The translations under genes and the position numbers were made by a program. Below the pieces are notes generated by a model, which did no database searches, had not been told where the DNA came from, and saw only the letters and a program-made list of their open reading frames with translations. Shown here in pieces: positions 25,104 through 45,860 of a stretch of 64,000 nucleotides of DNA (position 1 is its first letter; each line of letters starts with the position of its first letter). This stretch comes from Magnolia sinica (Eukaryota; Streptophyta; Magnoliopsida; Magnoliales; Magnoliaceae): assembly GCF_029962835.1 (NCBI RefSeq), contig NC_080583.1:53299658-53363657 (forward strand), read 5' to 3'.

Positions 25104-27589
25104 ATGGATACCAGAAGAAGAATACCATTTCTCTCTCTCTCTCTCCTCCTCTTCTTCTTCATCTTCTCTCTCAAGGCCTACCTCTCCAATGCTTCAGATT
25201 CTATCACCCCAACTCAACATCTTACTTAGCCCCATAACCTAACCTCCAAAGGTGCATTTGAACTGGGTTTCTTCACGCCAGGCAACTCCCTAAAATACTA
25301 CAGAGGCATCTGGTACAAACGGGTCCCGCAAGGGTAGCCAACGGAGAAAAACCACTCCCAAACCCCTCCAATTCAATCATAAAAATTGCGGAAGACAGCA
25401 ATCAGATCCTCCTCAGCCCCTCGAATTTTCTACTCTGGTCTACCAATCAAATATCTAAGCTCTTCAACGCGACTGTAGCGGTCCTCCTAGACACTGGAAA
25501 TCTTGTTCTGAGAGACAGATCCAACTCCTCTGTGGTGCACTGGCAGAGCTTTGATCACCCAACTCATACATGGCTTCCTGGAGGGTGGCTTGGATTGAAC
25601 AAGGTAACGGATGAAAACCAACGGCTTAGTTCGTGAAAGAACTCGGAAGATCCAGCCCCTGGGCTGTTCTCTATAGAGATCGACCCGGGCCCTAGCACAT
25701 AGTATTTTATTATGTGGAATGGGACTAAAAGTTACTGGAGTAGTGGAAATTGGGATGGGGCAATTTTCAGCAATGTCCCTGAAATGCGATTGAATGATTT
25801 CGATTTCATTCAAGGCGAATGGAGGAATTACGGTTTCAACTTCATCAATGACGAACTGAGGAAGTTTTTCAATTACTCACTGAAAAATACTTCCTTCCTT
25901 TCCAGATTCGTGATTGATCATTCCGGTCAGATCGAGATGATTTCATGGCTGGAATCCTCCTCTCAATGGTATCTGTTCTGGGCGCAGCCAATATCTCATT
26001 GCGATGTTTATGCTCTTTGTGGTTCCTTCGGAAGCTGCGACGAGAAGAGCTTGTCCTGTACGTGCTTGCCTGGTTTTGAGCCTAAGTCTCAGAACGACTG
26101 GGATTTGAGGAGTTGGTCGGGTGGGTGTATGAGGAAAACCCATTTGGAGTGTGGGCAGAACGGGTCATTCGATAGTGAGAAAAATGGGTTTTGGGCTTTG
26201 TCCGACATGAAACTGCCCAACGGCTCACGATCTTTGGCGGTTGGGAGCATCAGAGATTGTGAATTGGCCTGCTTAAATGACTGTTCTTGCACTGCTTATG
26301 CTTTCGAGAGCAGGTGTTTGATATGGAATGGAGAATTGTTGAATCTGAAACAGCTGTCTGATGGAAATAGTGAAGGCCAGACACTTCATCTACGTCTTGC
26401 GGCCTCTGAAATGAAGATTTCGGACCGTAGTAAGGGGACCAGTACATGGGCTGTTGTAGGTGTGGTTGCAGGGGCTGTTCTTCTATTGGGTATTGCTCTG
26501 TTTTTTATTTGTAGGTGGCAGCGACAACGGAATATGGTTAGTTCAGAGGCAGTTCAAGGCTCTTTTATTGCATTTAGCTACCGAAGCCTGCAGATTGCAA
26601 CGCAGAATTTCTCAGAGACATTGGGCTGCGGAGGTTTCGGTTCTGTTTTCAAAGGTACTCTGCCTGATCAAACAATGGTGGCGGTGAAGAAGCTTGAAGG
26701 GTTTCGGCAAGGAGAGAAGCAGTTCAGGACAGAGGTGAGCACGATAGGGATGATCCAGCACGTTAATCTCATCCGTCTTCGTGGGTTTTGCTAGGAAAGG
26801 GCTAAAAGGCTGCTCGTCTATGATTACATGCCAAATGGTTCTTTGGATTCTCAACTGTTTGGTGAGATTTCCAACATCCTGGATTGGCCGACGAGGTACA
26901 AGATAGCAATTGGGACGGCGAGAGGAATAGCTTATCTTCACGAGAAATGCCGAGACTGTATCATACATTGCGACATTAAGCCGGGAAACATACTTCTAGA
27001 TGGTGGGTTTTGTCCAAAGGTGGCGGATTTTGGCCTGGCAAAGCTCATTGGGCGGGATTTCAGTCGGGTTTTAACAACCATGAGAGGAACAAGAGGCTAT
27101 CTTGCTCCTGAATGGATTTCAGGGCTGGCAATCACATCAAAAGCTGATGTCTACAGCTATGGCATGATGCTTTTCGAGATCATATCAGGAAGGAGGAATT
27201 CTGAGCACTTGGAAATAGGGGAAACGGTGTTTTTCCCTATTTGGGCTGTGAGGAAAATCACGAGCAGTGAAATCCATTGCTTGTTGGATTACAGATTGAA
27301 GGGAAATGCGAATATGGAAGAGCTCGGTCGAGCTTGCAGAGTTGCCAGCTGGTGCATTCAGGACGACGAGAATGACAGGCCGTCAATGGGGAAGATTGTT
27401 CAAATCTTGGAGGGTGTTTTGGAGGTGAGCGTGCCGCCGGTACCAAGATCACTTCAGATTCTAGCGGAAAATCGGACGGAAAATCAGAACATGGTTTTCT
27501 TCTATGAGTCTTCGTTGTACCAGGGGCCGAGCAATGAATTAAAGGATTCGCGTTACAAGATCACTTCGTCAGCAGGTTCCAACAAGTGA
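25104..27589 (+). pseudogene. G-type lectin S-receptor-like Ser/Thr kinase pseudogene (At2g19130-like), plus copy
   Basis: The family encodes plasma-membrane receptor kinases with an extracellular mannose-lectin-like region. The ATG at 25104 opens a signal peptide (MDTRRRIPFLSLSLLLFFF). Then come a B-lectin region (AFELGFFTPGNS, LLDTGNLVLRD, FDHPTHTWLPG), an S-locus region (SGNWDGAIFSNVPEM, CDVYALCGSFGSC, CTCLPGFEPKS) and a PAN-like cysteine region (CELACLNDCSCTAYAF). A membrane span (VVGVVAGAVLLLGIALFFI) precedes a kinase with LGCGGFGSV, VAVKK, HCDIKPGNILL, VADFGLAK and APEW; HCD makes it a non-RD kinase. It is intronless, as usual for this clade. Lesions: TAG at 25227, a 13-bp deletion near 25333 that shifts the frame, TGA at 25634, TAG at 25700 and TAG at 26792. 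None of these stops is shared with the minus copy. The kinase C-lobe (26828-27589) stays open. Confidence 0.93.
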
Positions 27590-35834: not shown

Positions 35835-38298
35835 TCACTCGTTGGAACCTGCTGACGAAGTCGTCTTGGATCGTGAATTTTTTAATTCATTGCTTAGCCC
35901 CTGATACACGAAGACTCAGAGAAGATAACCATGGTCTGATTTTCCGACTGATTTTCAGCAAGAATCTGAAGTGATCTTGGTACCGGCAGCACATTCACCT
36001 CCAAAACACCCTCCAAGATTTGAACAATCTGCCCCATCGATAGCCCGTCATTCTCGTTGTCCTGAATGCACCAGCCTGCCACTCTGCAAGCTCGACCAAG
36101 CTCTTCCATGTTTGCATTTCCCTCCAATCTGTAATCCAACAAGCAATGGATTTCACTGCTCATGATTTTCCTCACAGCCCAAATAGGGAAAAACACCGTT
36201 TCCCCAACTTCCAAGTTCACAGAATTTCTCCTTCCTGACATGATCTCGAAAACCATCATCCCATAGCTGTAGACATCAGCTTTTGACGGGATTGCCACCC
36301 CTGAAATCCATTCAGGAGCAAGATAGCCTCTTGTTCCTCTCATGGTTGTTTAAACCCGGCTGAATTCCCGGCCCATGAGCTTTGGGCAGAACCCACCATC
36401 TAGAAGTATGTTTTCTGGCTTAATGTCGCAATGTATGATACAGTCTCAGCATTTATCATGGAGATAAGCTATTCCTCTTGCCGTCCCAATTGCTATCTTG
36501 TACCTCATCGGCCAATCCAGGGTGTTGGAAATCTCACCAAACAGATGAGAATCCAAAGACCCATTTGGCATGTAATCATAGACGAGCAGCCTTTTAGCCC
36601 TTTCCAAGCAAAAACCCACGAAGGCGGATGAGATTAACGTGATGGATCATCCCAATCGTGCTCGCCTCTGTTCGGAACTGCTTCTCTCCTTGCCGAAACC
36701 CTTCAAGCTTCTTCATCGCCACCATTGTTAGATCAGGCAGAGTCCCTTTGAAAACAGAACTGAAACCTCCGCAGCCCAATGTCTCTGAGAAATTCTTCGT
36801 TGCAATCTGCAGGCTTCCATAGCTAAATGCAATAAAAGAGCCCTGAACTGCCTCTGAACTAACTATATTCCGTAGCCTCTGCCACCTACAAATAAAAACA
36901 GAGCAATACCCAATCGAAGAACAGACCCTGCACCACACCTACAACAGCCAATGTACTGGTCCCCTTGCTACTGTCCGAAATCTTCAGTTCAGAGGCTGCA
37001 AGACGGAGATGTAGTGTCCGGCCTTCACTATTTCCATCAGACAGCTGATTCAGATTCAACAATTCTCCGTTCCACATCGAACACCTGCTCTCAAAAGCAT
37101 AAGCACTGCAAGAACAGTCATTTAAGCAGGCCAACTCACACTCTCTGATGCTCCCAACCACCAAAGTTCGTGAGCCGTCCAGCAGCTTCAGTCAGGCAAG
37201 GCCCGAAACCCGTTTTTCTCACTATCAAATGAGCTGTTCTGCCCACACTCCAAATGGATTTTCCTCATACACCCACCCGACGAACTCTTCAAATTCCAGT
37301 CGTTCTGAGACTTGGGCTCAAAACCAGGCAAGCACGTACAGGATGAGCTCTTCTCGTTGCAGCTTCCGAAGGAACAGCAAAGAGCATAAACATCGCATTG
37401 AGATATTGGCTGCGCCCAGAACAGATTCCATTGAGAGGAGTATTCCAGACATGAAATCATCTTGATCTGACCAGAATCATCAATCACGAATCTGGAAAGA
37501 GAGGAAGCATTTTTCACGGAGTAATTGAAATACTTCCTCTGTTTGTCATTGGTGAAATTGAAACCGTAATTCCCCCGTTGGTCTTGAATGAAGTCGAAAT
37601 CGTTCAATCTCATTTCAGGGACATTGCTGAAAATTGCCCCATCCCAATTTCCACTAGTCCAGTAGCTTTTAGTCCCATTCCACATCATAAAATACTGTGT
37701 GCTCGGGCGGGGTTGATCTCTAGAGAGAACAGCCCCGGGGCTGGATCTTCCGAGTTCTTCCATGAAGTAAGCCGTTGTTTTTCCCCGTTGCCTTGTTCAA
37801 TCCCAGCCACCCTCCAGGCAGTCATGTATGAGTTGGGTGATCAAAGTTCTGCCAGTACATGACAGACGAATTGGACCTGTCTCTCAGAACGAAATTTCCA
37901 GTGTCGAGGAGGACTGCAACAGTCGCATTCAAGGGCTTAGATGTTAGATTGGTAGACCATATTGGAAAATTCGAGGGGCTGAAGAGGATCAGATTGCTAT
38001 CTTCTGCTATTTTTAGGATTGAATTGGAGGTGTTTGGGAGGGGTTTTTCTCTGTTGGCTACCCAGACAACTGTTTGTTGTGGGACTCGTTTGTACCAGAT
38101 GCCTATGTAGTATTTTTAGGAGTTGCCTGGTGTGAAGAAACCCAGTTCAAATGCCCCACCTTGGGAGGTTAGGTTATGAGGCCAACAAAGATGTTGAGTT
38201 GGGGTGATAGAATCTGAACTATTGGAGAGGTAGGCCTTGAGAGACAAGATGAAGAAGAGGAGGAGATAGAGAAATTGCACGCTGCTTCCGGTATCCAT
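35835..38298 (-). pseudogene. G-type lectin S-receptor-like kinase pseudogene, minus copy
   Basis: Paralogue of 25104-27589, clearly similar throughout. ATG at 38298 (MDTGSSVQFLYLLLFF signal), stop equivalent at 35835-35837. The same B-lectin, S-locus, PAN-like, membrane and kinase parts are in order, with VAMKK, HCDIKPENILLD and APEW kept. Lesions I can see: TAA at 38116-38118; TGA at 37822-37824; 1-bp losses near 37777, 37700, 37188, 36930, 36905 and 35905; a 1-bp gain near 36610; TGA at 36446-36448; TAA at 36350-36352. An in-frame 24-bp loss near 36380 removes VADFGLAK, including the DFG magnesium-binding motif. The glycine loop reads GCGGFSSV. All checked stops differ from those of the plus copy, so the two copies decayed separately. 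Confidence 0.93.
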
Positions 38299-43192: not shown

Positions 43193-43727
43193 GGAAACGG
43201 ATTGGCCACTCCTCCGCCACCGTCTCTGTGGCTGATGGTCGGTGCTTTTTGGGCCCCACCATGATGTATGTGTTTCATCCATTCTGTTCATCCATTTTTA
43301 TAGATCGTTTTATGGCTTAATCCCAAAAATGAGAGGGAAATAAATCTCAAGTACACCACACCACATGAAAACAATAGTGATCAGATGTTCACCATTAAAA
43401 TCCCCCTAAGACCCAATATACTGTTTATTTGACATCCAATCTGTTGAGTAAGTCATACAGGCCCAGATGAAGATAAAAACAAAGATCAACTTGATCCAAA
43501 ACTTTTATGGCCCCCAAAATGTTTCTAATGGTCAACCCTCATTCAACACTGTTTCTGTAACGTGGTCCAATTAAGATTTGCATATACCTCATTTTTGGAA
43601 TTATACATAAAATAATATGTAAAAATAGATGAATGGCATGGATGAAACACATACATCATGGTAGGGCTCACATAGCACCGACCACCAGCCATTGGCCGGT
43701 GTCAGGGGGAGTAGCCAATCCGTTTCC
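43193..43727. mobile_element. 535-bp Mutator-like foldback MITE
   Basis: Terminal 20-mers GGAAACGGATTGGCCACTCC and (reverse complement of the right end) GGAAACGGATTGGCTACTCC differ at one position. Flanks AATGTTAGC (43184-43192) and AATGTTTGC (43728-43736) match at 8 of 9. The left kinase arm has the site unoccupied near 24670. Interior includes GGGCCCCACCATGATGTATG / ATACATCATGGTAGGGCTCAC inverted phrases; no coding capacity. Confidence 0.87.
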
Positions 43728-43736
43728 AATGTTTGC

Positions 43737-44026
43737 AACATTACCGTAGATTTTCTCATACGTAAGCCGGTGTAGCGGAAGCCGAATAATTTGCTTGTCA
43801 CCTGGAACTGAACTCGAACTCAAACTCAAAAACTTGTCTCAAAATTTTAAACTCGATCTCAGCTCGAACTGGCCGAAACTGCTAACTGAGCTAAGACAAG
43901 CTGGATGAATGACTCGGTCACCGAAATAAGTCAAACTCGTGATGGGGTAGCAACTGATCGAGTTGAACTGAGTTGAGCTGCTCAACTCAGTGTCCAGCTC
44001 CACTTGCCTCTGAGGCCATAAATGTC
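43737..44026. other. Right-arm sequence with extra GAACTCGAACTC-rich segment
   Basis: About 43737-43815 matches the left arm. The following 200 bp (CTCGAACTCAAACTC, GTTGAACTGAGTTGAGC) is absent there and resembles the terminal part of the hAT element at 44458. Probably another small insertion, with ends not resolved. Confidence 0.45.
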
Positions 44027-44400
44027 TTTGAAAAATCCACCCTATTTATCTGTTTTACAAGATCATAATATGAAAGGATTCTAAAAAATGAGGCAAATCC
44101 AAAACTCAAGTGGGCCACACCAACGAAACAGTATGAACAGAAATGTTGACGTTGTAGCCTTCCTGGAGCCAACAATGATATTTATATACCATCCAAACCA
44201 TTCATAAGATTATTACAACTCAGATAAAGTGTAAAAAAAAAATATCATTCTGATACAAAACTTCTGGCACCCTTAGGCATTCACTCCCCACTGTTTGGTA
44301 CACTATTGGCCACATAAGCTTTGGATCTTCTTGATGTTTTAGAATCCTACCATAGTAGTCTTTCAAAGTGGATGGATGGAGTGGATTTTTTTCACGAACA
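44027..44400. mobile_element. Foldback MITE, related to 24307-24600 and 45310-45860
   Basis: Inverted ends TGAAAAATCCACCCTATTTA and, reversed, TGAAAAAAATCCACTCCATC, with GTGGGCCACACC / GTGGCCACATAAGC phrases inverted inside. Carries GTTTCG and AGGATTCTAAAA phrases shared with its relatives. Target duplication not identified. Confidence 0.6.
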
Positions 44401-44457
44401 TTCTTGTACAATCCAAGCATATGAATATATTTGTCACGAGCAATCCTCTCTTGGTGG

Positions 44458-45274
44458 TAGGGGTGTACATGAACCGAGCTAGCTTAGTTGGCTTGCTCGA
44501 CTCAACTTGAAAAAGCTTGACTTGACTCAGTTCGAAGCTGAGTTCGAACTGAGAAGAGTTGATTTTTGGAGCTTGAAAACGAGTTCGAGCTTGCCCCAGC
44601 TCGACTCAACTTGGATCGAATCTACCTCGAACTTGGCTCGACTCGGTGCAGGGTTATATATACCCGTCAATGCCTCGTCTTTTCAAAAGAGCATCGACAG
44701 GGCTGCTCCCACCGGCCATTTTATCAAGCTCCATCTCGTCCATTCCCTTGTTCTGAGGCTGACTTACCTCCCCTGTCATGCTCCCAGGTTTCTGGAAAGC
44801 CGTCACCATGCTCCAGATCCCAGTAGAGTGACTCATTGAAGAACACCGCCCAGACTGCATCGTCACCGACATGTGCTTGCCATGGACAGTCGACATTGCT
44901 CGCAAGCACGACATAGTGAGGCTTGGTTTTAGTGCAAGCAGCTTCTTCTCCATTGTTATTTGGAACTGCATAAGACGTTACAGGCCCCATGATTATGTTG
45001 ATAGTGACTTGGAGAATTTTGTTGTGACTGGTCTCCCACATTGAATAGAGATGACAAGGTCTCAATTGCCTGACTTCTTAAGAGTCCAAAGCGGTTTCAC
45101 GGACTTCATAGATCGTATTCACAAAGCTAACGACATGAGCTATGGCATCGTGGTGGCGAACTCGGCTCAAATTGGCCCGAGCTACTGGCCAAACCGAGTC
45201 AAGCTGGCCAGTTAAGCTCGAGGACCGAGGTGAGCCGAGTTCAAGCTGAGGTCAGCTAGTTATGTACACCCCTA
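44458..45274 (+). mobile_element. 817-bp non-autonomous hAT element carrying a UGT73 gene fragment
   Basis: Perfect 13-bp terminal inverted repeats (TAGGGGTGTACAT at 44458-44470 and its complement at 45262-45274) and a perfect 8-bp target duplication CTTGGTGG (44450-44457 and 45275-45282). TAGGGGTG ends with 8-bp duplications are the known hAT signature. Roughly 190 bp of GAGCTCGAACTC-rich sub-terminal DNA on the left and 105 bp on the right enclose a host gene fragment (44651-45165). No hAT transposase is present. Confidence 0.92.
44651..45165 (+). pseudogene. UDP-glycosyltransferase (UGT73-like) fragment inside the hAT element
   Basis: UGT73 enzymes transfer sugars from UDP-sugars to small molecules in the cytosol. 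The fragment covers about 170 codons of the acceptor-binding N-terminal half. Segments in order: YIPVNASSFQKSIDRAA, FIKLHL, FPCSEADLPP, FWKAVTMLQIPVE, EEHRPDCIVTDMCLPWTVDI, FSASSFFSIV, CIRRYRPHDYVDSDLENFVV, IEMTRSQLPDFL, FTDFIDRIHKAND and SYGIVV. The family counterparts are (M)LQEP.E, RPDCLVADMFFPW, SFF, RSQLPDF and SYGVVVNSFYELE (recalled). A frameshift lies near 44735 and another before 44790. In-frame TGA codons fall in PVE*LIEE and in GLPH*IEM. The C-terminal PSPG sugar-donor box is absent because the fragment ends before it. It is a transduplicated piece with no function expected as an enzyme. Confidence 0.9.
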
Positions 45275-45309
45275 CTTGGTGGAGAGCGGGCAGTCAAAGA
45301 AGTGGATTG

Positions 45310-45860
45310 TGTCCAGGGTCACATGTTATCCGCTCTTGGTGGAGAGTGGCAGCCAACAGCGTGAAGCTGAAGCTGATTGGTGAATGCTGGTGACTGGAGC
45401 ACAGAGATATTTCTCTGCCTGGGCCTGTGTGGGTCCCCCAAGGGATGTTCTTGACAAATCTACTCTGTACATTTATTTTTAATGGCTACAATAGTGACGC
45501 CATATCACACAAAACTGTGGAGGTTGAACGGCTGCAGTTGCCAGAAATTTTGTATTAGGATGATATTTGTGTCTATAATTTATTTGATGGTAATAACCCT
45601 AGGAATGGTTTATATGGCGTATAAACATAATGGTCACCTTCAAGAAGGTTTCCATGGTGGACGCTTTTGTTCCAACTGTTTCGTTTGGGATGGCGCACCT
45701 GCGTTTTGGATCTGCTGGGTTTTAGGTTACCATCCTATCGTGGTAATTAAAAACAGATGGACGGAGTAGATTTGTCAAAGACATCTCCACGGCCCACACA
45801 GCACTGAGGACAGGTATATCTCTCTATCCAGGGTCACCGGCAATCCGCTTCCCTCATGGA
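45310..45860. mobile_element. Foldback MITE-like repeat
   Basis: TTGACAAATCTACTCTGTACA at about 45450 and its inverted relative TGGACGGAGTAGATTTGTCAA at about 45755 mark inner arms. GGTGACTGGAGC...GAGATATTTCTCTG and the inverted counterpart near 45810-45840 extend them. The centre (about 45490-45740) shares phrases with 24310-24600 and 44040-44390. Outer ends and target duplication not resolved. Confidence 0.5.

Follow-up and report, generated by a model that had tools for sequence, protein, structure and literature searches.

The element at positions 44458–45274 of the window (the whole 64,000-nucleotide stretch of Magnolia sinica DNA analysed here, C11:53299658-53363657 of the host assembly) is a genuine Pack-hAT. 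We consider it highly likely that a non-autonomous hAT element took up a UGT73-like gene piece of about 519 bp and then multiplied by cut-and-paste transposition; this confidence applies to capture and spread, and leaves out the template-switching step discussed below. The identification draws on inverted termini (TIRs) and target-site duplications (TSDs), four copies, a donor gene without the ends, relatives with other interiors, paralogous empty sites, neutral drift and a second capture in the same family. A Pack-hAT-like non-autonomous element had been proposed in a preliminary description of this DNA, and the proposal is supported by the copies with the same borders and the donor without ends.

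Between its two ends the element measures 817 bp. The TIRs agree at 13 of 13 bp, with a mismatch at position 14, and CTTGGTGG borders the element on both sides with 8 of 8 bases identical. Both the perfect 13-bp inverted ends and the perfect 8-bp duplication claimed in the preliminary description were borne out, the ends at exactly the coordinates given for them. The features are as follows:

44450..44457, no strand: left copy of the TSD (CTTGGTGG); a single copy, with 1–3 differences, is present at paralogous empty sites
44458..44470, plus strand: left TIR, TAGGGGTGTACAT; 3683 genome matches against 51 for a control
44458..44662, plus strand: left terminal region of the hAT family, common to relatives without the UGT piece
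44663..45149, plus strand: captured UGT73-like fragment, donor coding bases ~124–642, N-terminal half; sense on the plus strand, frame broken
45150..45274, plus strand: right-hand terminal region of the family, which a deletion close to the end has made shorter than in several relatives
45262..45274, minus strand: right TIR, a perfect inverted match to the left TIR
45275..45282, no strand: right copy of the TSD (CTTGGTGG), duplicate of 44450..44457; one target copy at paralogous empty sites

The perfect 13-bp TIR agrees with the short TIRs of non-autonomous members of the hAT superfamily. Pack-MULEs have Mutator ends and a 9-bp TSD; with a TSD of 8 bp and a TIR of 13 bp, that identity was rejected. 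The window was scanned for 11-bp perfect inverted pairs that are separated by 100–2500 bp and flanked by a perfect 8-bp duplication; one place, the 44458–45274 element, has this structure, which occurred in 0 of 20 first-order Markov shuffles of the window. Searching the window with the two terminal regions of the element, at E values up to 0.001, brought up no other family members.

The captured stretch occupies 487 bp in the window copy (44663–45149) and contains two stops; two deletions, of 31 bp and 1 bp, account for the difference from the 519 bp of the donor. The earlier estimate of about 515 bp for the insert agrees with the length in the donor (donor 124–642). All three UGT motifs that had been read in the translation as UGT73-like, RPDCIVTDMCLPW, RSQLPDFL and SYGIVV, were recovered in the third forward frame.

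Using the interior (44686–45165) as query against the host assembly (1,838,573,281 bases, 127 contigs) we found six matching places, the window included. The hAT ends are present at three of the four matched loci outside the window and absent at the place on C16:

C11, window 44458–45274: captured copy of 817 bp, TSD CTTGGTGG, 8/8
C2 at 132.78 Mb (C2b), match C2:132775697-132776206: captured copy of 910 bp, TSD GTCGGGCC/GTCGGGCT, 7/8
C8 at 14.10 Mb, match C8:14099732-14100243: captured copy of 842 bp, TSD ACCATGAC/ACTGTGAC, 6/8
C2 at 5.40 Mb (C2a), matches C2:5396123-5396448 and 5402859-5403032: captured copy split by a later insertion
C16:49650154-49650649: interior match without hAT ends, the donor

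The preliminary description had named as supporting evidence several copies with the same boundaries and 8-bp duplications. Such copies exist: the element with its fragment has transposed, being present four times, with a duplication matching at 6 or more of 8 bases in three of the four. At 8/8 in the window, 7/8 in C2b and 6/8 in C8, these agree with the 8-bp TSD of the hAT superfamily; the fourth, C2a, has no clean 8-bp duplication, its flanks reading GATGTACG, then four extra bases before the left end, and GATGTACC past the right end. The match to the donor begins at donor base 124, 130, 124 and 129 in the four copies and ends at base 642 in all of them, so the borders are common to the four. 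Copies and donor are 86.7–90.3% identical in DNA over 484–514 sites, and the main matched pieces share 59–84% protein identity with the N-terminal part of the donor. What was captured is the N-terminal half of the donor; the half that matches PF00201 lies outside the capture. A tree rooted on the donor groups the window, C2b and C8 copies with an ultrafast bootstrap of 87, with 5 sites favoring this group against 4 that place C8 with the donor, and the branching order of the four copies appears weakly resolved. The C2a locus (C2:5393500-5403499, L046) is interrupted by about 6.4 kb with 465-bp direct repeats that are 94% alike; the insertion is probably an LTR retrotransposon.

The donor, at C16:49650008-49651465 (L045:4409-5866), is a full-length UGT reading frame of 1458 bp without hAT ends, its one interruption being codon 266, an in-frame TAA. 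Within the surrounding 8 kb we found no family termini beyond two chance-level matches (12 bp, E 0.19; 19 bp, E 0.66). It is by far the closest full-length gene, since no other UGT gene from the protein search exceeds 54% identity; next to its N-terminal part come four genes on C11 and C1, with 52–54% protein identity. The PF00201 profile matches the C-terminal part of the donor (E 4.8e-23), and no match rose above the cut-off for its N-terminal part or for two short window pieces. UGT73C1 matches the N-terminal part at E 5.2e-63, and among 49 solved relatives UGT73C1 ranks second and SgUGT73AM30 fourth. With its UDPGT domain and its relation to UGT73, the donor is best assigned to the UGT73-type plant UDP-glycosyltransferase genes. 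A best protein match outside the UGTs had been named as grounds for abandoning the original reading; the closest proteins are UGT73-type enzymes. The expectation of an intact parent lacking the ends was met in part: the full-length UGT73-like gene on C16 lacks them, but an intact parent was not seen, because this gene carries one in-frame stop, which may reflect recent pseudogenisation, allelic variation or a fault in the assembly. With that one stop noted, the arrangement is that of a Pack-TYPE element, host gene DNA lying between the ends and the donor lying elsewhere without them.

The ends themselves are widespread. The genome contains the 13-mer TAGGGGTGTACAT 3683 times, 1804 in forward and 1879 in reverse orientation, compared with 51 (26 forward, 25 reverse) for the reversed control pattern. 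A search of the genome with the element, in which the best 40 of 6949 candidates were scored, listed 56 matches, most of them to one terminus alone (element bases ~1–214 or ~700–803). Among 25 relatives (L014–L038), 17 pair up as complete elements of 793–1301 bp and eight remain unpaired; the pairing rule itself demanded both ends and an 8-bp duplication, admitting up to 2 mismatches in each, and the TSDs are perfect in 7 of the 17. The ends of the relatives align with the window element up to both borders of the UGT piece. Past these borders six aligned relatives switch to unrelated interior, most with an A-run and pyrimidine-rich stretches. Seven open fragments from the interiors of six relatives gave no Pfam match above the cut-off. 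Pieces of the interior of one relative (L023) have matches of up to 93% at other places, in part tandemly arranged, and this interior does not clearly look like a gene. At C1:778439-781451 (L006) a direct tandem array repeats the TIR word, with up to 1 mismatch, every 46 bp for at least four units, which looks as though an element end had been amplified.

One relative holds a second capture. At C10:45718698-45721913 (L035) a family element of 1301 bp, with TSD ATTACAGC/CTTACAGC, carries 465 bp that are 92.7% identical to C1:107993378-107993839, a segment that runs from inside exon 1, over the GT border, into intron 1; the end of exon 1 in this source gene is predicted from the reading frame and the GT. 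No family ends were found in the 1001 bp read at the source (C1:107993100-107994100, L087), with 2 mismatches allowed. Profile and structure searches with the fragment returned no solved structures, no Pfam matches and no NCBIfam matches; we presume that its gene resembles a plastid protein, Ycf45/SPD1-like. The piece also matches C1:103995262-103995509, which may be another copy of this capture because a 75-bp match to the L023 interior lies about 200 bp away. It is conceivable, and we put it forward tentatively, that the TAGGGGTGTACAT family is a lineage of hAT elements that has captured genes repeatedly, with many further gene pieces, some of them multicopy, behind the approximately 3,700 end matches.

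The two flanks of the element were joined with one copy of CTTGGTGG and searched against the genome. Three segments (C12:78581088-78581476, 78455364-78455747 and 78421593-78421982) are continuous across the junction at 76–78%, and further segments match the joined flanks in part. In the alignment, L081–L084 are continuous where the element is inserted in the window and have a single copy of the target, which differs by 1–3 letters; L085 and L086 match the right flank side alone. An intact UGT73 gene with the same flanks at an allelic or syntenic position was the other outcome named as contradicting the capture; the sites compared here are paralogous, and they are empty, with no UGT gene. The element is probably nested in another repeat, because parts of its flanks recur at many places in the genome. 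The longer flank matches (72–93%) cluster at C11:53.24–53.30 Mb and C12:78.38–78.65 Mb, and the surroundings of the element (43548–45823) contain imperfect inverted repeats of 60 nt (44240/45509) and 59 nt (44158/45590). Elsewhere in the window, at 25262–27589 and 35894–37796, lie reading frames that are apparently two related copies on opposite strands; we take them to resemble S-domain/lectin receptor-like kinases.

How the gene piece and the ends came together may be considered from the borders. A single capture event would underlie all four copies, and the UGT stretch would have replaced the ordinary interior, which measures some 430 bp in L022 and similar relatives but is longer in others. 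For the capture itself we lean towards template switching during repair of a break in the element, a process described in PMC8277862. Border microhomology, if such it is, appears short: ACCC is present in element and donor alike at the left border, while at the right the element has AACTC against AACAC in the present donor, where microhomology would require a later change in the donor. The main competitor concerns the capture step alone, and holds that the DNA was gained when two neighboring elements flanking a gene piece moved as one. Such neighbor insertion is proposed for plant Pack-TYPE elements, hATs among them, in PMC8903248. The aligned copies contain no inner TIR remnants at the insert borders, although such repeats may have eroded since. 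Beyond chance level, family termini are also absent from the 8 kb of sequence surrounding the donor, and the UGT insert sits in place of the ordinary interior of the relatives. Since both inner TIRs and termini near the donor are missing, template switching fits better than a fusion of two insertions, and we regard neighbor insertion as unlikely.

The capture as a whole could be denied by supposing a decayed UGT gene that bears hAT ends by coincidence, or a UGT pseudogene with an independent insertion on either side. The UGT piece is indeed a broken gene fragment, but its two borders are common to four copies, each at a site of its own, and paralogous segments lack any insertion at the point occupied in the window; this supposition is therefore extremely improbable.

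After capture, movement of the element would use hAT transposase supplied in trans. Transposase genes of this kind appear plentiful in the host genome: in a search for the hAT dimerisation domain (PF05699), all 150 scored places, the best 150 of 2766 candidates, pass the cut-off. The two transposase loci read (4.1 kb each, with long open frames) yielded no autonomous partner: neither has a matching TIR pair, and one of them has a single 2-mismatch TIR match. Of 100 exact TIR positions listed, 52 were compared with three transposase matches on the first 35 Mb of C1; none lies within 80 kb of them, the nearest distance being 88 kb.

The captured piece itself would be a passenger without selected function. 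Changes confined to single copies are synonymous in 15 of 59 cases (40 are nonsynonymous and 4 create stops; the count leaves out 2 more that fall in gapped codons), and the neutral expectation is about 0.25; changes that divide the donor from all copies are synonymous in 11 of 23 cases (P ~0.016). The copies thus look neutral in their drift. Three of the four (window, C8 and C2 at 5.40 Mb) are broken by stops or frameshifts. That the piece now functions, through a chimeric protein from the C2:132.78 Mb copy or through small RNAs tuning the donor UGT, is a reading to which we give very little weight. It can point to the open frame of 206 codons without a stop in that copy, and to the 21-mers that the window insert has in common with the donor, 17 of 467 exactly, and 219 when up to 2 mismatches are tolerated. 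However, the changes look neutral, and a simulation of the 172 captured codons left them stop-free in 22–58% of cases for 63–20 changes, in a model without frameshifts; chance explains the absence of stops, and a functional frame in this copy was rejected. Codon 266 of the donor is an in-frame TAA. As for small RNAs, none of the 467 21-mers of the insert recurs exactly in the six other UGT genes that were compared, and no more than 4 do so when up to 2 mismatches are tolerated. The suggestion in the preliminary description that siRNA from the captured strand could affect parental UGT73 genes is thus unsupported, the sole close parent having a stop and the six other genes no exact match, and a regulatory role of the captured piece appears poorly supported.

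A single genome contains the donor, copies amplified with common borders, relatives that lack the piece, and empty sites in paralogous segments, which makes this a well traceable capture, of value for testing how cut-and-paste elements acquire genes. It matters for annotation too, where copies of this kind may pass for UGT genes. Our literature search found no paper on hAT gene capture in Magnolia, and UGT73 was absent from the text of the transposon, capture and hAT papers among the matches listed. Pack-hAT elements are already known in other plants; the window element adds a well-documented case and leaves the general picture of hAT gene capture unchanged. Published accounts cover maize Ds2 and Ds-l4 (PMC3260210), grapevine Hatvine-6 (PMC2528002), Pack-hATs of maize and rice (PMC8903248) and a frog hAT (PMC8277862). 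Because the maize Ds study calls hAT gene capture rare (PMC3260210), a clear case together with a second in the same family is useful.

Comparison with these systems, on the features that the respective texts describe, places the window element among them. The Ds2 and Ds-l4 elements of maize are likewise non-autonomous hATs; they have variable filler, and 2 Ds2 and 9 Ds-l4 elements contain gene fragments, with the donor on another chromosome in two drawn cases (PMC3260210); unlike these, the window element belongs to another TIR family, has its fragment in four copies and occupies a site that is empty in paralogs. With the Pack-hATs of maize and rice it shares non-autonomy, TIRs, an 8-bp TSD and captured coding DNA, but it comes from another species and its borders fit interior replacement better than a two-insertion fusion (PMC8903248). 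Hatvine-6 elements resemble it in their common ends and in interiors that are often gene-derived; they have a common transposase coding sequence, whereas none was recognised in the 817-bp element, the interior of which is the UGT piece (PMC2528002). The frog element Pack-hAT-N8_XT offers the same history of one capture followed by amplification with distinct TSDs, although there the host is an animal, the fragment is 291 bp of 5' UTR and the copies lie on three chromosomes (PMC8277862).
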